Source of the DNA: Pseudomonadota bacterium
Lineage (GTDB): Bacteria; Pseudomonadota; Gammaproteobacteria; Steroidobacterales; JBCBZW01
Length of the DNA: 37,463 bases
NCBI GenBank assembly: GCA_039815145.1
Contig: JBCBZW010000042.1
Coordinates: 1-37,463, forward strand
Reading direction: 5' to 3'
Positions 7,695-32,134 of the stretch are shown here, piece by piece. Each line of letters starts with the position of its first letter. The stretch's first letter is position 1. The position numbers were made by a program, and so were the translations under genes. The notes beneath the pieces are model-generated. The model saw only the letters and a list, made by a program, of their open reading frames with translations. It searched no databases and was not told the DNA's origin.

Positions 7695-8254
7695 GTGAGG
7701 CCCTCAGGTCTGGCCTGCTTTGCCAACGCGTACCATTCGCCAAAGCTGGGTTGTCTGCGCTATCAGCGCTGGCGAGGGGCAGGTGATTGGAGGTGCCGGT
7801 CGGCTCGCCCCACCGTACCAGCAGGCTCAGTGGCTGCAGACGAGTGTAAGCTCAGGGTTACCCTCAATGTCAACAATAATCTTGGTTGAGCTGTGGCAAT
7901 TGCACGAAGGCGACCGCAGTCCGCGGCGTATGCCGGGCACGATTGCAAGCTCCAGCAACTCCTCTTGAGTGAAAATCGCCAAAAAGCCTCGATCAACAGC
8001 GTCTGCGAGTTCGATGAGAGCCAACACCTGACGATTGCGTAAGCCGAACCTTCGCGAGTTAGCTCTCAACTAGGGGCTTGTTGCGGTGCCGCGGGTTCCT
8101 TTCCAGGTGATCGGGTTCAGCCAAAGCATGGTGTGCAGGGCTGGTATAGCTCCTCCTTCTAACGCGATAATGCGACGTTCGCCTCGACTTGCGATGCAGC
8201 ATCGTGGGCCGAAGCCCTTACCACCGCTTCGGGTTCGCTCTGAGGAGACTACGC
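7695..8254. other. 560-base AT-richer intergenic stretch
   Basis: This region lies between the LytTR regulator and the triple-PAS GGDEF-EAL gene. Base composition falls below that of the flanking left-hand genes. A 5-bp hairpin (AGGCC at 7698-7702 with GGCCT at 7712-7716) just after the regulator stop could be a weak terminator. A short minus-strand reading frame (7827-8069) is listed separately. A TATAGC hexamer occurs about 110 bases before the downstream start, but no matching -35 was found. No repeats or integrase remnants were recognised. Confidence 0.5.
7827..8069 (-). CDS. Possible small hypothetical protein (80 aa)
   Basis: An 80-codon frame opens with ATG on the minus strand inside the intergenic islet. 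The product has an acidic, helix-prone middle (IELADAVDRG, TQEELLEL) and a C-terminal part with Cys-Asn-Cys-His and a final Cys-Ser-His. I recognise no family. No strong ribosome-binding site is seen, and the codon use lacks the GC bias of the neighbouring genes. It may be a decayed or transferred fragment, or not a gene at all. A second overlapping minus-strand frame (7763-7996) is equally unsupported. Confidence 0.2.
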   Translation of the reverse strand: MRANSRRFGLRNRQVLALIELADAVDRGFLAIFTQEELLELAIVPGIRRGLRSPSCNCHSSTKIIVDIEGNPELTLVCSH

Positions 8255-10777
8255 GTGACTTCAGGCTCAGACGATGCTCTCCCGACGCACTACTTACAAC
8301 GAGAGCTTGAAAACCTGGTGCGCGAGAGCCCTTCCGTATTCCGGTTTATCGAGGAGGGGTCGCTGGATGGTTTGTGGTATTGGGATCTAATCGACGGCGA
8401 TGCCGAATGGATGAGCGATCGCTTCTGGTCCGTGTTGGGGGTCGATCCCGCAACGAAAACAGCTTCCGCGTCCGAGTGGCAGGCGATCATTGACCCTCAC
8501 GATCGAGAGGTCGCCCTAGCGAATGCGAAAGCTCACATGGCGAATCCTGACCACCCCTACGACCAGGTTGTCCGGTACAGGCACGCCGATGGACACACGG
8601 TATGGGTGCGGTGTCGCGGCATTGCCATCCGTGATGGAGACGGAGTTCCGGTTCGGATGCTCGGCGCGCACAACGATATCAGCGACGTTATGCGCCGACA
8701 GCAAGCACTCGAGCGAGCGGAACAACAGCTTCGGGTTTCCTTCGACAATGCCCCTATCGGCATGGTACTTGCGCGGGTCGATGGCTCCCTGTTCGCCGTC
8801 AATGACGCCTTCTGTGACTTCGTTCAACGGGACCGGGCTTCGCTGCTCAAAGCAGACTACCAGTCCATTACGCATCCGGACGATGTGGAGAGCAGCGTAG
8901 GGATTATCGAATCACTCATCCACGGTGAGCTGCGGTCAGCTCAGGCCGAGAAGCGCTACCTTTTGCCCGATGGATCCCCTGTGTGGGGGATGTTGTCGGT
9001 CTCAGTGGCCCGCGACACGAACGGAGAACCCCTCCACTTCATCGCTCAAGTCAAAGACCTCAACAAAGAAAAAGAAGCACGGCAGGTGGCCGAGCGCGCT
9101 GAAGCACTCTTCCGGGCCTCGTTCGATGACTCGTCCTCCGGACAGCTCCTGGTTTCGCTCGATCCTGGGGAGTTAGGGTGCATTGCGGAAGCGAATAACG
9201 CGGCAGAGCGCATTCTGCGCACTGACGATCTGCCCGGAAACCTCTTCATCGATTTCATTGGCCCCGATCATCGCTCGGAAGCAGACTCAATGCTGAACAC
9301 CTTGGCCCAATCAGGCTCTCGGTTCGAGTTGGAGTGGCAGGCGCAACCGTCCTACGACGAGCAAAGCCGATGGGTTCGCGCAGTAGGCACACGAGTTGGT
9401 GAGCATAGTGATTCCAACCCTCATGCCCTCGTTCAAATCGAGGACATTACAGAGCGAAAAGACGCACTGGAACGCCTCGAGCACATGGCCAACCATGATC
9501 TGCTCACGGGGCTGCCAAACAGATCGCTAGCGGTCGATCGACTGGAGCAGGGGCTTGCAAGGGCGCGTCGTCGCAACTCTCGGGTCGGATTGCTGTTCCT
9601 CGACTTGGACAACTTCAAGGTGGTGAACGACAGCCTCGGCCATCCGGCAGGGGATGAGCTGTTGCGGGCTGTCGCCGCAGTGATCGTGCGGGTGGTGCGC
9701 GAGAGCGACACGGCGGCTCGCTTCGGTGGAGATGAGTTCATCGTGATTTGCGATGACCTGCCTACTGACCTCGCCGAGGCTGAGCGAGTCTTGAACGCGA
9801 CCGCTGAGCGTATCTCCGACGCGCTCCTCACACCGATTGAGGCCTCAGGTGGGCTAAGCACCGTGAGAGTCTCTATAGGCGCCCGTCTTTCCAACGGTTC
9901 CGAAGACACGGCGCAACTCATGATTAGCGATGCGGACGCCGCCTTGTATCGAGCCAAGTCGCTGGGCCGTTCAAGAACACAGATGTTCGAAACTGCTATG
10001 CGACAGCGGGCCGTGGATCGGATGAACATGGAGCGTGAACTTCGTGATGCGATCCGTGAGCATCAACTGTCGGTGGTCTATCAACCAATCGCCAATCTCA
10101 TCTCCGGTGAGGTCTCCCACGCGGAGGCGCTGGTGCGATGGAATCACCCTGAAAAGGGCGTGATTCTGCCAGGTCGCTTTATCGAAATAGCTGAGGACAC
10201 GGGGCTCATCGTGCCTCTCGGCGAATTCGTATTTGAGCAAGTACTTCAGGACTTGCAGCGCTTCCCGAAGGAGCTGAACGGCATGAGGGTCGCGATCAAT
10301 GCTTCTGCTAGGCAGATCGGGCAGACAGATTTCGCCGGTCTCGTTCGGCAAGGGCTCGATCGCCACCAACTCGAGCATCGAGTGTCTATCGAGCTAACGG
10401 AAAGTGCGATGCTGCAAGCCTATGGGTCGATGCGGCGTCAAATCGACGAACTGAGGGCCCGTGGCATTCCGGTCGGCGTAGACGACTTCGGCACGGGGTA
10501 TGCCACGCTCTCATCGGTCAGGGCGCTTCCGGTGGATTTCTTGAAAATCGACTCGTCATTCGTTGAGCGAGTGGCTGAAGACGCTGCGGACAAAGCCATC
10601 GTGTCTTCAATCCTAGCCTTAGCGTCTGGGCTCGGTCTCGGAGTGATTGCCGAGGGCATCGAGACCACCGCCCAACGAGATACGCTGATCGAACTAGGCT
10701 GTACCCTTGGTCAAGGGTATTTGATGTCACCGCCTATCCCACCTGGCCGCTTGCGCGACAAGGTGCTCGCAGCGTAG
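8255..10777 (+). CDS. Triple-PAS GGDEF-EAL cyclic-di-GMP enzyme
   Basis: I chose the GTG at 8255 because TGAGGAGA lies 6 bases upstream; the longer frame from 8189 has no such site. The 840-residue product has no membrane segment or signal peptide and should be cytoplasmic. Three PAS domains lie at about residues 25-150, 155-275 and 285-400. A diguanylate cyclase domain follows with GGDEF at 491-495, preceded at the canonical spacing by the RESD inhibitory site. An EAL phosphodiesterase domain has E624-A625-L626 and the catalytic loop DDFGTGYA. Both catalytic motifs are intact, so it may make, degrade or switch between making and degrading cyclic-di-GMP in response to a PAS-bound signal. Base composition and codon choice are less GC-rich than those of the flanking genes, consistent with later acquisition. 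Confidence 0.93.
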   Translation: MTSGSDDALPTHYLQRELENLVRESPSVFRFIEEGSLDGLWYWDLIDGDAEWMSDRFWSVLGVDPATKTASASEWQAIIDPHDREVALANAKAHMANPDHPYDQVVRYRHADGHTVWVRCRGIAIRDGDGVPVRMLGAHNDISDVMRRQQALERAEQQLRVSFDNAPIGMVLARVDGSLFAVNDAFCDFVQRDRASLLKADYQSITHPDDVESSVGIIESLIHGELRSAQAEKRYLLPDGSPVWGMLSVSVARDTNGEPLHFIAQVKDLNKEKEARQVAERAEALFRASFDDSSSGQLLVSLDPGELGCIAEANNAAERILRTDDLPGNLFIDFIGPDHRSEADSMLNTLAQSGSRFELEWQAQPSYDEQSRWVRAVGTRVGEHSDSNPHALVQIEDITERKDALERLEHMANHDLLTGLPNRSLAVDRLEQGLARARRRNSRVGLLFLDLDNFKVVNDSLGHPAGDELLRAVAAVIVRVVRESDTAARFGGDEFIVICDDLPTDLAEAERVLNATAERISDALLTPIEASGGLSTVRVSIGARLSNGSEDTAQLMISDADAALYRAKSLGRSRTQMFETAMRQRAVDRMNMERELRDAIREHQLSVVYQPIANLISGEVSHAEALVRWNHPEKGVILPGRFIEIAEDTGLIVPLGEFVFEQVLQDLQRFPKELNGMRVAINASARQIGQTDFAGLVRQGLDRHQLEHRVSIELTESAMLQAYGSMRRQIDELRARGIPVGVDDFGTGYATLSSVRALPVDFLKIDSSFVERVAEDAADKAIVSSILALASGLGLGVIAEGIETTAQRDTLIELGCTLGQGYLMSPPIPPGRLRDKVLAA

Positions 10778-14147: not shown

Positions 14148-14176
14148 TTGACAGGGGCTACGCCCTGTCCCATAGT
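14148..14176 (+). promoter_or_regulatory. Sigma70-type promoter of the cobalamin operon
   Basis: TTGACA (14148-14153), identical to the -35 consensus, is followed after exactly 17 bases by CATAGT (14171-14176), which matches four of six bases of the -10 consensus. The predicted start of transcription is about 14183, three bases before the first conserved part of the cobalamin riboswitch. The fit of spacing and position makes this a strong candidate. Confidence 0.75.
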
Positions 14177-14185
14177 CCCGCGAAG

Positions 14186-14350
14186 ATGGTGTCCGGTAAG
14201 GACTTGATAGGGAACCCGGTGCAACTCCGGGACTGTGCCCGCAACTGTAAACGGTGAGCAGGCAGCACTGACGCCACTGGCTTTCGCGTCCACCGCGAGG
14301 CTGGGAAGGCCGCTGCCGAACGCGACGACCCGTGAGTCAGTAGACCTGCC
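14186..14350 (+). promoter_or_regulatory. Cobalamin riboswitch (AdoCbl aptamer)
   Basis: The segment carries the conserved blocks of the cobalamin aptamer in order: GATGGTGTCCGG, the GATAGGGAACCCGGTGCAA block, ACTCCGGGACTGTGCCCGCA followed by the B12-box core ACTGTAAACGG, the GCCACTGG and GGGAAGGCC stretch, and the closing GTGAGTCAGTAGACCTGCC at 14332-14350. This RNA class binds adenosylcobalamin or another cobalamin and usually shuts off downstream transport and synthesis genes when the vitamin is plentiful. Here the genes below it are btuF, btuC, btuD and cobQ, which fits. The predicted promoter starts transcription just before it. The expression platform runs to the btuF start and includes a strong hairpin at 14481-14500. 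Confidence 0.95.
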
Positions 14351-14480
14351 ATCGCGTCGCTCGTCCGGGGCCGGGTCCAGCCCTCGAGGACAGGAATTCC
14401 TGCATTCCCTTGAAGCGACACGGTGTCCGATACCGCGCCCCAGGTGTGCCCTGTAGCGACGGACTCATGTGGCGAAATGC

Positions 14481-19425: not shown

Positions 19426-22400
19426 TTGCCTTTGACCGGGTCCCTGCCACGTTTTGCGAGTTCGTGCGCCTTGCGGCCGCGGCGTTGTCACGCTGCGCTG
19501 TTGGCGCTGCTCGGCGCATTGCTACTCCCCGCGGCTGTCCATGCCCTGGACCCGGACAAGCAGATCCACCACTACTTCACGGACACCTGGGGCTTGCAGG
19601 ACGGGCTGCCGCAGACCCAGGTCACGGCCCTGGCCCAGGGCGAGCGCGGTTACCTCTGGGTGGGCACGCGTGGTGGCTTGGCGCGCTTCGATGGTGTGCG
19701 CTTTCGCAGCTTCACCCCGCAGTCGGCGCCCGAGCTCACGGGGGCGATCATCCGTGATCTCCACCGGGATCGTCGCGGTCGCCTGTGGGTGGCCACGTAC
19801 CGGGGCGTGTCGGTTTACCACGATCAGACCTTTCGGGCGCTTCACCTAACACTTCCGAATGCCAGCGAGAGCGTCGCCTTCGACGCGCGCGAGATCGCCG
19901 AGCGGGACGACGGCACGCTGCTGGTGGCGACCGATCTCGGGTTGCTGCGCACGGCGGGAGAGCAGCTGCAGCCTTGGAGTGAGGCCAGGGAACCCGTGCA
20001 CGCGGTGATGACCCGCGGCGCCGAGGTGTGGGTCGGTGGCGTCGGCCGGGTCTGGCGGGTGGATGGCGATGCGCCCGCCGCAGCGACGCCGCCCCTACCG
20101 CAGGCTTTCGCCACCGCTACGGTCTCGAGACTGCGCCACTACGAAGGGGCGGTTTGGGCGGGCACCAACCGCGGCGTCCTCCGCCTGGACGGCGGCGAGT
20201 GGCGCCAGGTCTTCGGCGCCGAGCGGGCGATCACCAATCCGGTGACGGCGATGCACGTGGATGGCGACGGCATGCTCTGGGTGGCCACGGACGAGCATCT
20301 GTTGCGCTTCTTCCAGGGCGCCCTCGTCGCAGACTCCCCGGGCGCGCCCACCTACCCGGCCATTCGCGCGTTCACTGAGGATCACGAAGGCAGCCTGTGG
20401 CTGGGGGATCACACCCTGAGCGTCGTCCGCGTGCGCAACGGGCTGACCAAGCGCTTCAGCGAGCGCCACGGGTTGGTGGAGCGCGGCATCTGGTCCGTCG
20501 CCGCCGATCCGCGTCGCAGCGATGCCCTGTGGGTGGGCGCCCTGCAGGGCCTCTACCACTTCGCCGACGATCGCTACGAACTGATCGCTGCGCCTCAAGC
20601 GCTACCGCACCCGGAGATCTACACGCTGTTCCCCGAGGACGAGCGGGTGTGGCTGGGCACCAACGGGGGTGGTGTCGCGGTGCTGCAAGCGGGCGAGGTG
20701 AGCATTCCCGGAGGCACGCAGTACCTGGTCGACGCGAAGATCAGCGGCATTCTCCGCGACCCTGAGGGGCCCTTGTGGATTGCCAGTAGCAAGGGCGTTT
20801 GTTCCTACGTGGGGACGGAGCTCTCATGCTACGGGCGCGAGGCGGGCCTGCCGAATCCCTCGGTGCGTGTGGTGCACCTGTCTGGGCGCGGTGAACTCCT
20901 GGTGGGGTCTCAGCAGGGGTTGTTCCAGCTGAGTGATGGGCGCTTCGAGCAGGTTGCGGGCGAGCTGATCCCGCTCAGCGAGGACATCACCTCCATCAGC
21001 GAACTGACCGACGGCACCCTGGTCGTCGGGTCACTCTCCTCTCACGTCTACCTGCGCCGCGAGGGCGAGTGGTACCGCTACGGCATGGAGGACGGACTGC
21101 CGGAGCTTACGCCGTTCTTCGCTGCTCGGGATCAGTCGCGTTTTCTGTGGCTGGCGGGCCTGCGCGGTCTGTATCGCATCCCCTTCGCCCAGTTCTCCGC
21201 CTACGAGCGCGGCGCCATCACCAGCCTTCAAGGTCAGATGCTCCTCACCGAGCGCGGTGATGTGCTCGGCTCGGACAAGGCCTACTGTTGCAACGGCGCG
21301 GGGCGTGCCAAGGGCGTGTTCGGCGACGGCGTGCTCTGGCTGCCCACCCGCGACGGGGTCATCGCCGTGGACAGCGAGCGCGTGCAAAGCAACCCGCACC
21401 AGCCCGAGGTGGTGGTGGAGCAGGTCGATGCGGGCGAGGGCTGGCAGGATTTCTCCCGGGCCGGCGCCGTGGTGCTCGCACCCGGTAATCGCAACCTATC
21501 GCTGCGCTTCACCGGCTTGAGCTTCGCGTCACCTCAGAGCGTTCGCTTCCGCTACCGCATGCGAGGCTTCGACAGCGAGTGGCGGCGCCCTGGGGATAAG
21601 GCACTGCGCACGGCCTTCTACACCAACCTGCCGCCGGGGCGCTACACCTTCGAGGTGACGGCAGCCAACAACGCGGGGGTGTGGAGAGAGCAGCCGGCCG
21701 CCGTCGAGGTGCACGTGCTGCCGCAGTTCTATGAGACCAGATGGTTCCGGGCCTCCCTGGTGTTTGCCGTGCTCGGCTTGATCTGGCTCGGGTTCCGCCT
21801 GCTGCTGGAGGGCCAGCGACGCCAGCGTGCCCGCCTGCGGGCCTTGGTGCAGGCGCGCACCCAGGAACTGCAGGAGGCCAACCGTCACCTGCGCGAATAC
21901 AGCCGGCGCTTGGAGAGCGCCTCGAGCACCGATCCCCTGACGGGCCTGTGGAATCGCCGTTACCTCGACGATCAGCTGCCCATCGATCTGTCCGTGCTGG
22001 AGCGCAAGCTGCAGGCCACGGGAGACAGCGAGCTGGTCACCGTGTTCGCGTTGGTAGACCTCGATCACTTCAAGGCCTTGAACGACCAGCACGGCCACGG
22101 TGCCGGCGACCAGGTGTTGCGTGAGTTCGCCGCCCTGGTGAGTGCGTTGGTGCGCGAGAGTGACTACGTCGTGCGCTGGGGCGGGGAGGAGTTTGTGATC
22201 GTGCTGCGCGACGTGTTGCCCGGCGATGCCCAGCGCACCCTGCAACGGCTGTGTCAGGCGGTGGCCGATCATCCCTTCGATCTGCTGAGCCACGGCGATG
22301 AGCCCTTGCGCGTCACCTGCTCGATCGGCTTCGCGTGCTATCCGTTCATGCCCCTCGCTGAGAACACTTTCACCTGGGAGCGTACGATCGAGGTGGCAGA

Positions 22401-22593
22401 TGTCGCCCTCTATATGGCCAAGCACGCCGGGCGCAACCGGGTGCACGGGTTGCTCGCGGGCGATGAGGCTTCAGCAGCTAACGTGACTGTCAAGCAGGTG
22501 CGGGCACAAACCGACGCCCTGATCCAGGGCGGCGTCCTACGCCACGTCGAGCTTGGTGCGCCAGAGCGTTCGTCAACGGAGCGTAATCACTAG
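19426..22593 (+). CDS. Beta-propeller / Y_Y_Y / GGDEF membrane sensor diguanylate cyclase
   Basis: This is a 1055-residue protein. The start is a TTG at 19426, 7 bases after GAAGGAA; the next ATG would fall behind the signal peptide, so TTG is preferred. A signal sequence ends near AVHALDP. Residues of about 45-680 carry repeated two-component-regulator-propeller motifs (DGLPQTQVTALAQGERGYLWVGT, REGEWYRYGMEDGLP and many WVGT/WLG repeats). A Y_Y_Y domain follows (RFRYRMRGFDSEW, NLPPGRYTFEV), then one membrane helix near 780, a coiled coil and a GGDEF domain. Its active motif GGEEF is at 919-923, with an RESD inhibitory site five residues earlier. The architecture senses a periplasmic ligand, often a polysaccharide or its products in related hybrid sensors, and makes cyclic-di-GMP inside. 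Confidence 0.93.
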   Translation: MPLTGSLPRFASSCALRPRRCHAALLALLGALLLPAAVHALDPDKQIHHYFTDTWGLQDGLPQTQVTALAQGERGYLWVGTRGGLARFDGVRFRSFTPQSAPELTGAIIRDLHRDRRGRLWVATYRGVSVYHDQTFRALHLTLPNASESVAFDAREIAERDDGTLLVATDLGLLRTAGEQLQPWSEAREPVHAVMTRGAEVWVGGVGRVWRVDGDAPAAATPPLPQAFATATVSRLRHYEGAVWAGTNRGVLRLDGGEWRQVFGAERAITNPVTAMHVDGDGMLWVATDEHLLRFFQGALVADSPGAPTYPAIRAFTEDHEGSLWLGDHTLSVVRVRNGLTKRFSERHGLVERGIWSVAADPRRSDALWVGALQGLYHFADDRYELIAAPQALPHPEIYTLFPEDERVWLGTNGGGVAVLQAGEVSIPGGTQYLVDAKISGILRDPEGPLWIASSKGVCSYVGTELSCYGREAGLPNPSVRVVHLSGRGELLVGSQQGLFQLSDGRFEQVAGELIPLSEDITSISELTDGTLVVGSLSSHVYLRREGEWYRYGMEDGLPELTPFFAARDQSRFLWLAGLRGLYRIPFAQFSAYERGAITSLQGQMLLTERGDVLGSDKAYCCNGAGRAKGVFGDGVLWLPTRDGVIAVDSERVQSNPHQPEVVVEQVDAGEGWQDFSRAGAVVLAPGNRNLSLRFTGLSFASPQSVRFRYRMRGFDSEWRRPGDKALRTAFYTNLPPGRYTFEVTAANNAGVWREQPAAVEVHVLPQFYETRWFRASLVFAVLGLIWLGFRLLLEGQRRQRARLRALVQARTQELQEANRHLREYSRRLESASSTDPLTGLWNRRYLDDQLPIDLSVLERKLQATGDSELVTVFALVDLDHFKALNDQHGHGAGDQVLREFAALVSALVRESDYVVRWGGEEFVIVLRDVLPGDAQRTLQRLCQAVADHPFDLLSHGDEPLRVTCSIGFACYPFMPLAENTFTWERTIEVADVALYMAKHAGRNRVHGLLAGDEASAANVTVKQVRAQTDALIQGGVLRHVELGAPERSSTERNH

Positions 22594-25859: not shown

Positions 25860-26429
25860 GGCAGGAAGTCAACGCTGGATGAAGCCGCCGTCTTTCGCTA
25901 CGTCGGCGCCACCCTCGCCAAGGCAGGCGCGGTCACGCTGCAGGGCGTGGTCGAGGGCACCGGGTTCTCCATGGGCTCGCTCTATCACCGCTACCGCTCC
26001 CGCGAAGGCTTGCTGGCCCATGCCTGGTTGGATGCGCTGGAGGCGTTTCAGAACCAGTTCGCCGACCTGATCGAGCACGGTGGCGTGGAGGCGGGCGCCC
26101 GCGCGGCCATGCTCACACCCGCCTTCTGCCGCCATCACCCGGCCCGCGGTGTCGTGCTCGCGTGCTGTCGCGCCTCGGAGTTTGTGGGTGAGAAGACGCC
26201 GCCGGCCCTGCGCGAGCGCATCGACTTGGCCAATCGTCGTGGGGCGGGGGCGTTGAAGCGGTTCTCCCAGCGCACGCAGGTGGACCTGATGACTTGCCAG
26301 CTCGCCGTGGTCGGCATGCCCCTGGGCGCGGTGCGCCTGTTCCTGCCAGCGCAGCCCGTCCCCCTCTCCATCGACGAGCGAGTGCAGACGGCTTACTGGG
26401 CGCTAATGAAGTCACCCCAGGTGGCTTGA
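25857..26429 (+). CDS. TetR/AcrR-family transcriptional regulator
   Basis: This 190-residue protein starts with GTG at 25857. Residues of about 5-60 form the helix-turn-helix domain, with the family pattern VTLQGVVEGTGFSMGSLYHRYRSREGLLAHAW, in which SLYHRYRSRE is the recognition-helix end typical of TetR proteins. The C-terminal half (about 65-190) is all-helical, as expected for ligand binding and dimerisation, and includes the segment CRHHPARGVVLACCRASEF. Most members repress their own gene or a neighbour, commonly transport or redox genes. The preceding secreted-protein gene is the only close same-direction partner, so the target is not clear. No strong ribosome-binding site is seen, only a weak TTGAG. 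Confidence 0.88.
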   Translation: MGRKSTLDEAAVFRYVGATLAKAGAVTLQGVVEGTGFSMGSLYHRYRSREGLLAHAWLDALEAFQNQFADLIEHGGVEAGARAAMLTPAFCRHHPARGVVLACCRASEFVGEKTPPALRERIDLANRRGAGALKRFSQRTQVDLMTCQLAVVGMPLGAVRLFLPAQPVPLSIDERVQTAYWALMKSPQVA

Positions 26430-26578
26430 GGTGAGTTGATCACGGCACCGGTCTGCGCGAGGGTTGTTGGCCGAGCGAACCCGCCAGCGCCAGGCAAATG
26501 CTGCCGCACCATCGCTCGTTTTGCCGCCCGCCCTGGGGCGCTTTCGCAGTGCCTACCGTCCAACGGCTAGAGTGACTC

Positions 26579-26974
26579 GTGATGACCGCCGCAGCGCTCT
26601 ACATCGAAGACGGTCGATTCGACCGCACCGTCTTCGCCACGCACTTCAACGCCATGAACCGTGAAGACCTCACCCTGGACGTTGCCGAAAGCGTGGAGGC
26701 TGGTCTGAGAGTCTTACGAGCGCGCATGCCGGACATCATCTTCCTCGACAATCGGGTGCCACCCCACGAGGACTACGAGGAGAGCCTTGCCGAGCTGACG
26801 AACGCAGGCTTCGTCGGGCCCGTCGTTCTCATCACAGGCCTTCCCACTCTCGAAATGCAGGATGCGGTCGACGGCGCCGGACCTGTGTGCGCGTTGCTCG
26901 ACAAACGCGGCCTCAGTGCGACGCGCTTGACCGAGGTGATCACCCCATTGCTCGCCCGATTGCCGAATGGCTAG
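26579..26974 (+). CDS. Stand-alone receiver-domain response regulator (CheY-like)
   Basis: This 131-residue protein starts at the GTG at 26579; the adjoining ATG at 26582 is equally possible and no ribosome-binding site settles it. It consists of a receiver domain alone. ALYIEDGRFDR supplies the acidic pair, D57 in IIFLDNRVP is the phospho-acceptor, the Thr in VVLITGLPT is the switch residue, and the Lys in LLDKRGL completes the active site. With no output domain it should act by protein-protein contact. It lies directly before a PAS-GGDEF-EAL gene in the same direction and may belong to the same signalling path, although a separate promoter appears to drive the downstream gene. Its kinase is not identifiable from the window. 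Confidence 0.88.
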   Translation: MMTAAALYIEDGRFDRTVFATHFNAMNREDLTLDVAESVEAGLRVLRARMPDIIFLDNRVPPHEDYEESLAELTNAGFVGPVVLITGLPTLEMQDAVDGAGPVCALLDKRGLSATRLTEVITPLLARLPNG

Positions 26975-27007
26975 ATTTGTAGCGCCTTGCAACAAGTCAG
27001 CGAGAAA

Positions 27008-27023
27008 CGTGATCTACATCACG
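27008..27023. promoter_or_regulatory. CRP/Clp-like binding site
   Basis: CGTGATCTACATCACG is a perfect 6-bp inverted repeat around CTAC and contains GTGA-N6-TCAC, the core of the CRP-family consensus TGTGA-N6-TCACA. The flanking left side (AAA before CGTGA) also matches the consensus. The centre lies between 27015 and 27016. Confidence 0.7.
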
Positions 27024-27044
27024 CCGTCGGTGGATTGCTATCAA

Positions 27045-27050
27045 TACATT
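27045..27050 (+). promoter_or_regulatory. -10 element of a class II CRP-type promoter
   Basis: TACATT matches four of six -10 consensus bases. Taking it as -12 to -7, transcription starts at 27057 and the CRP-like site is centred at exactly -41.5, the spacing of class II CRP-activated promoters. The leader to the ATG at 27134 would be 77 bases. Confidence 0.55.
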
Positions 27051-27133
27051 CGTCGTGTGGATTCTGTTAACTGGGCGAGTTGTCGGGTCGGGTTCGTCGC
27101 ACTCGCGCGTACCCGCCGGACCGGAGTAAGTGG

Positions 27134-28915
27134 ATGACCCCCGGATCCAGTACCTATCGACCCTCGGCAACCGATAGCGACACCCTGCAAAGTTATATCG
27201 CCGAGTTGCAGCAGCAGTACCTGGAGATGTGCCGCGTCCGTGACGAGCTCGAAACGTCGCGCGAGTGGTATCGCTTCATGTTCCAGAACTCGCCTGTCGC
27301 CTACCTGTGCTTCGACCGCTTCGGCGTCGTGAGTGACGCCAACGATCGCGCCCTCGAGATTCTCGGGCAGAGCGCCGATCGGGTGATCGGTAAGCCCGGC
27401 TTGCTGTTCTTCTCCACTGCGGGCAGGCGTGCCTTTGCCACCCACATTCGTCATGTGCTGGAGGAGGGGCAGCGGGAGATCGAACTCGAACTGAGCTCGC
27501 CCGTCCACGGTTGGCAGCACGTGCTCATGTCGAGCATCCCGATCCCCCACGAGTCCGGCACGCCCACCCACTGCCAGTCTGCGCTGATCAACATCTCCGA
27601 GTTGAAGCGCACGCAAGAGCGCCTGGTGCAGACCCGCGATCACATGGAGACCCTGGCGCACCACGATGCTTTGACCGGGTTACCTAATCGCCTCCTATTC
27701 ACGGATCGCCTTGAGCATGCGATCAATCGGGCTAGCCGAGAGAATTTGATAGGGGCGGTAATTTTCTTTGATCTCGACCGGTTCAAGGTGATCAATGACT
27801 GCCTCGGGCACGAGGCTGGGGATACGCTGCTCAAGCAGATGGCTCAGCGCCTGCGCGAGACCACCCGTGCGGAAGACACCGGTGCCCGCTTCGGCGGTGA
27901 TGAGTTCACCATCCTCCTCGAGAACATCGTCAATCACGAGAACGCGGAGAACGTCGCGCGCAAACTGCTGGCCAGCTTCGAGCGCCCCGTGGCGCTCAAC
28001 GGGCAGACTGTGCGGGTCACCCCCAGCATCGGGATCGCGATGTTTCGGGGTAACGATCTGGAGGCGGGGGAGATCATTCGCCGCGCCGATGTGGCCATGT
28101 ACGCGGCGAAGGCGGCCGGCGGCGCTACGCACCATCTGTTCAAGGCGGCGGACGACGAGCTTGGCGATCGCCACGAGCTCGAGACCCAACTCTACTCGGC
28201 GCTCAACGAGGAGCAGTTCCGGGTGGTGTTCCAGCCCCAGTTCCGCTCGGACGGTGCCACCGTCGCGGGGCACGAAGCGCTCGTGCGCTGGGAGCACCCG
28301 CAGCGCGGCACCCTGCTGCCGAACGACTTCGTGCCCCTCGCGGAGGAGGCCGGGTTCATCGGTGAGCTGGGCTTGTGGGTATTGCGCGAGGCCTGTCGCC
28401 AGAACATGCGCAACGGCGACGGCAAGACGCCGATGGCCCGCATCGCCGTAAACGTCTCACCCCTGCAGCTGGCTGCCGGCAATCTGGTCGAGGCCGTGCA
28501 GAGCGTGCTCGATGAGACGGGCCATCCCGCCGACTACCTGGAGTTGGAGATCACCGAGACAGCCGTGATGTCAGAGCCGTCCACGGTGGTCGGCGTGCTC
28601 GATCGCTTGCGGGCAATGGGCGTGAGCATCGCGGTGGACGATTTCGGCACCGGCTACTCGTCCCTCGTGCTGCTCAAGCGCTTCCCGATCAATCGCCTGA
28701 AGATCGATGGTTCTTTCGTGCAGGGCATCGAGGATCAGCCCTCGGACCGAACGATCGCCCAAGCGATCATCTCCCTCGCGCAGCAGATGGCCATGGAGGT
28801 GGTGGCGGAGGGCGTCGAGACCCGCGCCCAGTTCGACTTCCTGCAGGATGCGGGTTGCGAGCTGTTTCAGGGCTATCTGTTCTCGCCCCCGGCGGACACC
28901 CTGTACCACGCCTGA
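27134..28915 (+). CDS. PAS-GGDEF-EAL cyclic-di-GMP enzyme
   Basis: I chose the ATG at 27134 because GGAG lies 7 bases upstream and the earlier frame start (27080) adds an Arg-rich stretch within the leader. The product has 593 residues and no membrane segment. A short coiled coil (about 15-45) leads to a PAS domain at about 45-160 (WYRFMFQNSPVAYLCFDRFG). The diguanylate cyclase domain has GGDEF at 254-258 with an RAED inhibitory site five residues earlier. The EAL domain has E381-A382-L383, ELEITETAVM and DDFGTGYSS. All key motifs for both activities are present, so net direction cannot be told from sequence. A CRP/Clp-like site and a -10 element lie upstream. The stop is 6 bases from the convergent chemotaxis-fusion gene. 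Confidence 0.93.
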   Translation: MTPGSSTYRPSATDSDTLQSYIAELQQQYLEMCRVRDELETSREWYRFMFQNSPVAYLCFDRFGVVSDANDRALEILGQSADRVIGKPGLLFFSTAGRRAFATHIRHVLEEGQREIELELSSPVHGWQHVLMSSIPIPHESGTPTHCQSALINISELKRTQERLVQTRDHMETLAHHDALTGLPNRLLFTDRLEHAINRASRENLIGAVIFFDLDRFKVINDCLGHEAGDTLLKQMAQRLRETTRAEDTGARFGGDEFTILLENIVNHENAENVARKLLASFERPVALNGQTVRVTPSIGIAMFRGNDLEAGEIIRRADVAMYAAKAAGGATHHLFKAADDELGDRHELETQLYSALNEEQFRVVFQPQFRSDGATVAGHEALVRWEHPQRGTLLPNDFVPLAEEAGFIGELGLWVLREACRQNMRNGDGKTPMARIAVNVSPLQLAAGNLVEAVQSVLDETGHPADYLELEITETAVMSEPSTVVGVLDRLRAMGVSIAVDDFGTGYSSLVLLKRFPINRLKIDGSFVQGIEDQPSDRTIAQAIISLAQQMAMEVVAEGVETRAQFDFLQDAGCELFQGYLFSPPADTLYHA

Positions 28916-28921
28916 GCGCTG

Positions 28922-31900
28922 CTAGCTCAGATCAGCTCGCGGCAGCGTGAAGCTCACGGTCGTGCCCTTGCCCACCGTCGACTCCAACCAGATGTGCCCA
29001 CCGTTGCGCTCGATGATGCGTTTGCAGATCGGCAATCCGGCCCCCACGCCGGTAGGCCCTTCGCCGGCGTTGGGGGCAATCAGGCCGAACACTTCGAAGG
29101 CACGGTCGAGTTCGCGCTCCGACATCCCGTAACCCGAATCCTTGATGCGCAGGGTGATCATCTCGTTGCTGCGCTCGTGGCTGACCTGCACGCGGGCGGG
29201 CCGCGCGGAGTAGCGAACGGCGTTGTCGAGGAGGTGGTAGAAGACCCGGATAAGCTGACTGCGATCGACGTACACTTCGGGGAGCTCGTCGATTTCGATT
29301 TTGGCGCCGTCGGCATCGATCAAGGGGCGCAGGAGTTCGATGGCTTCGTAGCAGGCGGCTGCGCTGCTGGCAGAGGCGGGTGGGGTGCCGCGGGTCTCCA
29401 CGCGGGCGAACTCCAGCAATCCCTTGATCATCTGCACCGCCTGATCCGCTGCCTCGCCAGCAGCACGAAGCATTTCGCCTTCGTGATCCAGGAGTCGATC
29501 GCCCATGGATTGCTGTAGGGCGCCGCTGGCGGTGCCGACGATGCGCACCGGCTCCTGCAGGGCGTGAGAGACGGCGTAGGCGAAGCGTTGCAGCTCCTCA
29601 TGAGAGGCGCGCAGCTTGCGGCTCGCGCTCATCACGCGCTCGACGCTGACGAAGGTGACGACGACGCCGATCACCTGCTCCTCAGCGTCCCGGTACGGGG
29701 TCATGCGCAGCAGTAGGGTGGCCCCAAAGCGGTCGCGTACTTCGGTCTCGAAGAGCTGCTGGTCGCGTAGCACCTGCTCGAGGTGCTCGTTGAAATCCTC
29801 GAATTCGATGTGCTTTTCGAGGTGGGCGATGGGGCGCCCGATGTCCTGTTCCAGCAAGTTGAACTGATAGGCGGCGGTCGGGGTGAACTTGCGGATGCGC
29901 AGCTCGCTGTCGAGGAACACGGTGCCGATCTCCGTGCTCTTGAGGAGGTTGTGCATGTCCGAGGTGAGCTCGGTGAGCTCGTTGATCTTGCCTTCGTGTT
30001 CGCGGTTCACCGTGTAGAGCTCCTCGTTCACCGAGTGCAGCTCTTCGTTCGTGCTCTGCAGTTCCTCGTTGGCGGCCATCAGCTCTTCGTTGGTCGCCTG
30101 CAGCTCCTCGTTGCTGGTCTCGAGGTCTTCCACCGCCGTCTGCAGGTGCTCGCGGGTGTAGCGAAGCTCCGTCTCCAGGTCCAGTACCTGGTCATCGGTG
30201 CTGTGCGAGTAGTCCATTTGGATCGGCGTGATGCTTGGCTCCGGCCGCGCCGACTCCTCGAAGCTGAGCAGGATGTAGGCTGGCGTGTCACGGCCCTGCT
30301 GGGGCAGGGGGCGTGCGCGGAGGTCGATCCTTTTCAGCTCGCCATCAAGGGTCACCTTGATGCCGTTCAGTGACAGAGGCTCTCCGGTGCTGTGGACCTT
30401 TTGCAGAGCGCTGATCACGGCCAATCGCAGGTCCGCGATGACCAGCTCTGAGAGGTATAGGCTGGCCACGCCGGTCTGCGAATGCAGGAATCGGCGTGCG
30501 TCGCCGAAGGTGTGGGCGATCTCCCCCGACCCGCTCACCAACACCGAGGCCGGCATGTACTGCTCCATGAGCACGTCGTAGGCGCGGATCAAGCTGGCGG
30601 GGCGCCCGCCAACCGCGCCACGGGAGAAGCTCGGTGCCATCGGAGCGCGGTGCTCGTCCATCGGCGGGCGGCGCACGGGGGGCACGCGGAACGAGGCGTT
30701 GGCGATGCGTCGCTCCGTGCGCTTGGTGAACACCTTGAAACGGTTGTTCTCGGTGCTGAAGTCGTTCACTAGATCGCCTAGGGATTCACTTGGGCCGAGG
30801 AACAGGAAGCTGTCTTTGAGTAGGGCGAAGTGGAACATCGCCAGGGCGTTCCGCTGGGCCTCGGCGTCGAGGTAGATCAGCATGTTCCGACACACCACCA
30901 TGGCGAGCTTGGTGAAGGGCGGGTCGGTGGTGACGTCCTGGCGGGCGAACACCACCATCTTGCGAATGTCCGGCTTGACCAGGTAGCCCTTGGTCACGCG
31001 CGCGAAATGACGCGCCAGCCGCTCCTGCGGTAGGGAGGCCACCTGATTCTCGTTGTAGACGCCGCTCGCGGCAAACTCCAGCGACCCCTTATGGACGTCG
31101 GTGGCGAAGATCTTCACCGGCAGCTGGATACGCTGCGCCTCCATGGCCTCACGGACCAATATCGCGAGGCTGTAGACCTCTTCGCCGGTGGCGCAGCCAG
31201 GCGTCCAAATGCGTAGATCGCCCTGTGCCTGCGCACGGGTGAGCAGTCGCGGGATGATCTCCTCTTCGAGGTAGGACCAGGCGGTGCTGTCGCGGAAGAA
31301 TGCGGTGACGCCGATCAGCAGGTCGCGGTAGAGCTGATCGAGTTCCTCCGGGTTGGCGGAGAGGAAGTCGACGAACTCCTCCATGGTGGTGAGGTGCGCC
31401 TCGTGCATGCGCCGCTCGATCCGCCGCGCCACGGTGGCGATCTTGTAGTTGTTGAAGTCCAGGCCACACTCGCGCCGAAGCAGGGCGAACACGCCCCCGT
31501 ACACCGGGTTATCGCTCGGCTCCGGGATGGGTAGCTCTTGCTTGTCCCGAATGCGCACGAGAGCCGGGGGGATGTGCTCCGGCGCCAGCACCAGATCGAC
31601 CACGCCGGTGGCCACCGTGTTGTTGGGCATGCTGTCGAAGCCCGAGGAGTCGGAGGTCTGGGCGATGACCAGGCCTCCGACGTCGTGCACGGCCCTCGCC
31701 CCCTCCGCGCCATCATCCCCGGTGCCGGACAGGACGACGGCGATCGCCGCTTCGCCCCATTGCTCGGCGAGGGACACGAAGAAGTGATCGATCGGTCGTT
31801 GGCGCGCGGCGTCGGCGGAGATGGGCACCGGCTGAAGGGTCTGGCGGGTGGTGAGCAGCTCGCAGCCTTCGGGCATCACGTAGAGGTGATTGGCCTGGAT

Positions 31901-32134
31901 GGTGAGGGCGTCACGCACCGAGTGGATCGGCATGCGCGTACGCCGCCCGAGCACCTGGTCCATGACGCTCTCGAAGTCCGGTGCGAGGTGCTGGACCACC
32001 ACGAAGGCCATGCCCGTATCCACCGGCAGGGACTCCACGAAACGCTCGAGCGCCTCGACCCCGCCGGCGGACGCACCGATGCCGACCAGGTGCGTCGCGG
32101 CCGTCAGCTGACTCCCCACCACAGTGTCGTCCAC
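28922..32134 (-). CDS. CheB-CheR-PAS-histidine kinase fusion protein
   Basis: This is a 1070-residue cytoplasmic protein. Residues of about 12-195 form a CheB-type methylesterase domain with S22 (GIGASAGG), H49 (VVQHLAPD) and the Asp of [11 protein letters not shown]. About 215-480 is a CheR-type methyltransferase domain ([13 protein letters not shown] and the SAM-binding [15 protein letters not shown]). A long heptad coiled coil follows, with repeats such as [11 protein letters not shown] and [15 protein letters not shown] domain is at about 725-830. The kinase region has phospho-His H857 in SHALQEPVR, an N box [17 protein letters not shown] and [10 protein letters not shown]. In most relatives the residue after the His is Asp; here it is Ala. 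The CheB receiver domain is absent. Such fusions occur outside chemotaxis clusters and probably sense intracellular signals. Targets are unknown. Confidence 0.92.

Follow-up and report, generated by a model that had tools for sequence, protein, structure and literature searches.

The locus analyzed here raises the question of whether a palindrome upstream of a gene for a GGDEF-EAL protein is a site at which a regulator of the CRP family activates transcription, and to which ligand such a regulator would respond. The palindrome lies within a 37,463-nt stretch of DNA (the window, by which we mean the whole stretch analyzed), in the 159-nt intergenic region between a gene for a receiver-domain-like protein and the GGDEF-EAL gene. 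A protein search of 59 genomes, including the one that carries the window (G000), yielded one congener (G001) and no further member of the family, and the locus was compared with this congener. Its features are:

26582-26974, + strand: upstream gene for a receiver-domain-like protein (Pfam Response_reg, below the curated cut-off), with an ORF at the corresponding place in the congener (L129)
27008-27023, + strand: CRP-type operator CGTGATCTACATCACG with a GTGA-N6-TCAC core, centre 27015.5, read directly
27037-27072, + strand: 36-nt run identical in the congener by alignment, spanning the -10 region, the predicted start and the first bases of the leader
27045-27050, + strand: -10 hexamer TACATT, 21 nt from the operator, read directly and invariant in the congener
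27057, + strand: predicted transcription start (+1), placed from the hexamer position, six bases behind the hexamer
27123-27126, + strand: probable Shine-Dalgarno sequence GGAG, read directly, inside a 60-nt run identical in the congener (27121-27180)
27134-28915, + strand: PAS-GGDEF-EAL gene (593 aa) with GGDEF, RxxD I-site and EAL motifs, from domain search and motif reading

Both the operator and TACATT were read at the positions where the sequence-only reading of this DNA had put them. Its description of the operator as a perfect inverted repeat holds for the 6+6 arms (CGTGAT/ATCACG), but not for the central four bases, CTAC, which are not palindromic. The site carries the GTGA-N6-TCAC core of a CRP binding site as an inverted repeat, but the outer T:A pairs of TGTGA/TCACA are replaced by C:G on both sides in both species, so we claim only the core here and not the full CRP consensus. 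At class II CRP promoters the site is centred at -41.5, and the operator centre lies at -41.5 from the predicted start at 27057. A generic scan found no sigma-70 promoter, that is, no -35/-10 pair, in 26400-27400, which is compatible with a class II promoter, and TACATT agrees with the -10 consensus at only four of six positions. The class II layout (a centre near -41.5 relative to the predicted start, a -10 element and no -35) is present and is kept in the congener. The operator could also form a 6-bp stem with a 4-base loop (folding energy -4.7 kcal/mol), and a terminator scan found no intrinsic terminator at the locus.

The gene downstream, which had been described as encoding a GGDEF-EAL protein, proved to be an intact PAS-GGDEF-EAL ORF beginning with the ATG at 27134, which gives a leader of 77 nt if +1 is 27057. 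The other EAL motifs that we looked for in the 593-aa protein were present, and, given the established roles of the GGDEF, I-site and EAL motifs, the protein could synthesize c-di-GMP, break it down or do both. Among the matches listed from named genomes (best 80, near genomes possibly left out), the best protein match has 46% identity over residues 134-586. A riboswitch in the leader was considered and rejected, as Rfam, searched at gathering thresholds, gives a single hit in the window, a distant cobalamin riboswitch (RF00174, 107.8 bits, 14170-14367, + strand), and so was a special folding of the leader (z 0.95). The conserved run 27121-27180 holds several GGA motifs and spans the Shine-Dalgarno sequence and the first codons, whose third positions are unchanged in the congener; the genome has two matches to CsrA above the cut-off, and post-transcriptional control by CsrA through this run is possible. 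Within the upstream receiver gene, which is otherwise diverged (71.5% overall relative to the congener), a 32-nt run identical in the congener (26927-26958) contains the palindrome GGTGATCACC at 26935-26944. Elsewhere in the window we observed a CheB-CheR-PAS-histidine-kinase fusion gene convergent with the GGDEF-EAL gene (28922-32134, - strand), a Reg_prop/Y_Y_Y/GGDEF gene (19426-22593, + strand) and a second EAL-domain gene (8189-10777, + strand) with no CRP-like site near its start.

How far the arrangement departs from chance depends on how much of it is counted. Over 200,000 dinucleotide shuffles of the 159-nt intergenic region, GTGA-N6-TCAC is expected 0.0039 times per shuffle and the core with a 6+6 palindrome 0.00031 times, and the core followed by a -10-like hexamer at a 21-nt gap has an expectation of 0.000025 (2.5e-5) per dinucleotide shuffle. 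Across the window, TGTGA-N6-TCACA with at most two mismatches is not enriched (8 observed, 9.3 expected), and for the exact core GTGA-N6-TCAC the count is 4, with 0.68 expected under a first-order Markov model. Most core matches in the genome are ORF-internal, and a core by itself therefore says little.

In the congener, the PAS-GGDEF-EAL orthologue is 97% identical, and its operator, CGTGATCTCCATCACG, differs at 1 of 16 positions, in the central N6, with the arms unchanged and the same 125 bp from GTGA to ATG, while 26 of the 159 intergenic bases differ overall and 7 of 14 in 27024-27037. Arms, hexamer and distance are all retained in the one congener compared, so the site and its spacing are kept in a close relative. 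By permutation, the chance of finding the 12 arm bases intact is 0.10 and that of the 36-nt run within the intergenic region is 0.017, so this two-species comparison is only modest evidence. Conservation of the 16-mer as such is not special either, since four other CGTGA/TCACG pairs that are ORF-internal in both genomes have motif partners at corresponding loci (L203/L206, L213/L237, L219/L210 and L225/L236). The L225/L236 site lies right where its ORF begins and could precede the true start.

The motif and its spacing can also be followed through both genomes. TGTGA-N6-TCACA occurs at 12 sites in G000 and 11 in G001, with none for the reversed control in either, and 10 of the 12 and 9 of the 11 are intergenic by an ORF heuristic based on codon position, with thresholds that vary slightly between motif searches. 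These sites form 8 orthologous pairs, with 4 of 12 (G000) and 3 of 11 (G001) partnerless in the other list, and 6 of these 8 differ in the central N6; since the motif search itself fixes the arms, what counts in this comparison is the pairing. The eight pairs, found independently of the window site, show TGTGA-N6-TCACA to be in use in the genus as a putative operator. Genes adjoining the sites, named from their Pfam domains, include glnA and glyQ (L149), purT (L160), a sugar transferase (L164) and receiver-domain proteins (L158, L162). The form with outer C:G pairs, CGTGA-N6-TCACG, gave 18 hits in G000 and 27 in G001 (reversed control 6 and 8) and is mostly coding: 16 of 18 and 23 of 27 are ORF-internal, with 2 and 4 intergenic. 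One of the intergenic sites in G000 (L224, between sigma factor and ABC transporter genes) has CGTGA/TCACG, and its counterpart in G001 (L167) has TGTGA/TCACA. The genome count of GTGAT-N4-ATCAC (G000 16 and G001 11, against 1 and 4 for the reversed control) was rejected as evidence for sites, 13 of 16 and 9 of 11 being ORF-internal.

For the eight TGTGA pairs, with the window excluded, a conserved -10-like hexamer (A2 and T6, at least 3/6, in both species) stands at a gap of 21 nt in 4 of 16 site-directions, and every other of the 70 gaps has at most one. Including the window pair, gap 21 is found in 5 of 18, or in 3 of 18 at a 4/6 threshold; when each of 15 site groups is represented once, that threshold gives gap 22 (3) slightly more often than gap 21 (2). 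The clearest gap-21 hexamers are those of L160/L174 (CATAAT) and L166/L169 (TATACT), and neither of the two ORFs tested downstream of them has a Pfam match. The gap-21 hexamer at L176/L165, which faces the 3' end of purK, is probably due to chance. The CRP site of L166/L169 (1501-1516) lies just 3' of a GGDEF-EAL gene and in L166 precedes a short ORF without a Pfam match.

Any such operator needs a regulator, and the CRP homologue presupposed by the sequence-only reading is indeed encoded in the genome, by two paralogues. CRP/FNR regulators were listed with HTH_Crp_2 (PF13545) alone, which has six matches, two of them above the curated cut-off: CRP1 (contig C51) and CRP2 (C232). The cNMP-binding domain has nine matches, eight above cut-off. 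In the numbering of E. coli CRP, residues 180, 181 and 185 contact the DNA and residues 71, 72, 82, 83, 127 and 128 belong to the cAMP pocket. Both proteins have the E. coli-type contact residues R180, E181 and R185, and both retain five of the six pocket residues (G71, E72, R82, S83 and T127), with S128 replaced by Asn; positions 82/83 are R/S in CRP1 and CRP2 versus R/E in Clp. Among PDB chains, CRP1 scores 253 bits with the best CRP chain, 241 with Vfr and 200 with Clp, and CRP2 is 51.5% identical to E. coli CRP and 50.5% to Clp. CRP1 was matched in 24 of 30 genomes (its own counted), G000 and G001 have two CRPs each, and CRP1 is identical in the congener at 226 of 227 positions. The sole change is at E. 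coli position 101, which we take to be part of activating region 2, and which is Cys here, Arg in the congener and Lys in E. coli. The genome encodes one class III cyclase with an FHA domain, and no class I cyclase was found in it. Because the pocket Ser83 is kept in both CRPs versus Glu in Clp, and because a class III cyclase is present, cAMP appears to be the likeliest ligand of CRP1 and CRP2; here we infer that position 83 decides the ligand.

We found CRP-like sites near the starts of other EAL-domain genes as well. The scan covered -350 to +250 around the stop-bounded starts of Pfam EAL genes and accepted GTGA-N6-TCAC, or 9 of 10 positions of TGTGA/TCACA; this rule was set with the window gene and its paralogue already in view, so the P values below are exploratory. 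Sites were present at 6 of 31 scorable EAL genes in G000 (32 in all) and at 5 of 28 in G001 (29 matches, two being pieces of one gene), counts from the full Pfam EAL list that supersede an earlier one of 5 among 13 top-scoring GGDEF-EAL genes. Each of the five G001 hits has a partner among the G000 hits, and all five pairs were aligned (G000/G001):

the window gene and its orthologue
C5:66969/C15:9869
C80/C58
C5:43438/C26:69016
C5:22390/C26:48061

In two of the five the arms are unchanged and three central bases changed; the sixth G000 hit (C47) had no match among the ten G001 loci compared. As background, 400 kb of G000 were scanned, with 204 genes encoding 200 aa or more, and 5 of these have such sites; this sample is hand-picked and not random, and includes two EAL genes (C1:113617 and C23:29180), both without a site. 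Against it, Fisher's P is 0.0009 for G000 (0.004 without the window gene) and 0.003 for G001 (0.013 without the window gene); against background genes with an upstream gap of at least 120 nt (4 of 89), P for G000 is 0.018 (0.044 without the window gene). The closest paralogue of the window gene (47% identical; L127 in G000, L128 in G001) has the CRP-like site TGTGATCCGCTTCACG at 1255-1270, identical in both species although set in a diverged upstream region, followed by the conserved CCCTACATAACATCTGGCCTCGTGTGG, and TAACAT stands in a conserved stretch at a gap of 22. Among the six G000 hits, only the window gene and this paralogue have a recognizable -10 at gap 21 or 22; the other four could act as class I sites, repress, or have no function. 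In the genus, EAL-domain genes appear to be preceded by at least five conserved CRP-like sites, the window site among them, and cAMP-CRP likely controls several c-di-GMP enzymes there.

Taken together, we consider it quite probable that a cAMP-type CRP at 27008-27023 drives class II transcription of the PAS-GGDEF-EAL gene. A CRP dimer akin to E. coli CRP and Vfr, with cAMP as its likeliest ligand, would bind the operator, cover the place of the missing -35 and bring RNA polymerase to TACATT. Transcription of the gene would then begin at about 27057, in the manner of a CRP-activated class II promoter. What we infer from the sequence comparisons is that CRP binds, with which ligand and through which paralogue, where transcription starts, and that the effect is activation and not repression.

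Other explanations of the palindrome have to be weighed against this one. The sequence-only reading had suggested a link of the Clp type, in which the CRP homologue would bind without cAMP and be released by c-di-GMP, so that the gene product would act back on the promoter of its own gene. Clp shares with the regulators here the stretch SRQELARLVGCSREMAGRVLK around the recognition helix, and the activity of Vfr, too, is reportedly inhibited by c-di-GMP according to the available part of PMC5449483, which leaves some room for c-di-GMP feedback. However, the Ser at position 83 of both CRPs where Clp has Glu, the higher scores of CRP1 with E. coli CRP and Vfr, and the class III cyclase in the genome all argue against this link, which we regard as very unlikely; for CRP2, the identities to E. 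coli CRP and to Clp hardly differ. A related extension, in which a CRP module acts on c-di-GMP turnover through at least five EAL genes and one CRP paralogue also senses c-di-GMP, so that the enzymes would feed back on their regulator, is one to which we give little credence.

A cAMP-type CRP might, on the other hand, repress at this site or act with a second factor instead of activating simply as at a class II promoter. Negative control is reported for a P. putida diguanylate cyclase gene, which CRP represses, and for CdgA of V. cholerae (available part of PMC11139211), and at Shewanella lrbR CRP assists another activator (available part of PMC12415220). At our locus, however, the absence of a sigma-70-like -35/-10 pair from the scanned region and the predicted centre at -41.5 favor activation, and the gap of 21 recurs in the genus, so that repression or a second factor seems unlikely. 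It is similarly unlikely that the palindrome is no CRP site at all and arose by chance, serves another regulator or forms an RNA hairpin after the upstream gene. Its stem and loop, its lack of outer T:A pairs and the mostly coding location of CGTGA-N6-TCACG, conserved also within coding DNA, would fit such an origin, but the scan found no terminator-like site, the only two proteins in the genome that pass the PF13545 cut-off are both CRP-type, and the spacing to the -10 hexamer agrees with that of independent sites. Class II activation by a cAMP-type CRP is thus the reading that we prefer.

The predicted promoter resembles E. coli class II CRP promoters of the galP1 type (class described in the available part of PMC5449483) in having GTGA-N6-TCAC over the -35 position and a poor -35, and differs from them in its replaced outer T:A pairs, its organism and a start site that is predicted. 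With Clp of Xanthomonas (available parts of PMC12564702 and PMC5449483; PDB 3IWZ), the regulators here share the CRP family, the recognition-helix stretch and a link, predicted here, between c-di-GMP and transcription, but Clp has Glu at position 83 where they have Ser, and identity is about 50%. In Shewanella putrefaciens, cAMP-CRP binds in the intergenic DNA that separates a regulator gene from the phosphodiesterase gene lrbR and promotes transcription of lrbR (available part of PMC12415220), which appears to be the nearest reported case among the literature examined. There, CRP aids the activator LrbA, and its site was not found as far as the available part of that paper goes, whereas the site here is explicit. 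CRP/Vfr also controls P. putida gcsA, V. cholerae CdgA and P. aeruginosa fleQ, which belong to c-di-GMP metabolism or its effectors; according to the available part of PMC11139211 these are cases of negative control, whereas we predict activation of the PAS-GGDEF-EAL gene. A limited literature search found no single paper that combines a class II CRP-dependent promoter, GGDEF/EAL and cAMP, which does not imply absence from print. The review that gives the gcsA, CdgA and fleQ cases, in its available part, calls knowledge of cross-regulation between cAMP and c-di-GMP "extremely limited" (PMC11139211).

In this organism, a cAMP signal probably controls enzymes of the second messenger c-di-GMP. 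The locus would provide a concrete predicted DNA link from cAMP to c-di-GMP in this lineage, and would add to the links between the two messengers already known elsewhere a case in which activation is predicted and the operator is explicit. If the five conserved sites at EAL-domain genes are real, cAMP may set c-di-GMP as a coordinated programme and not at a single gene.
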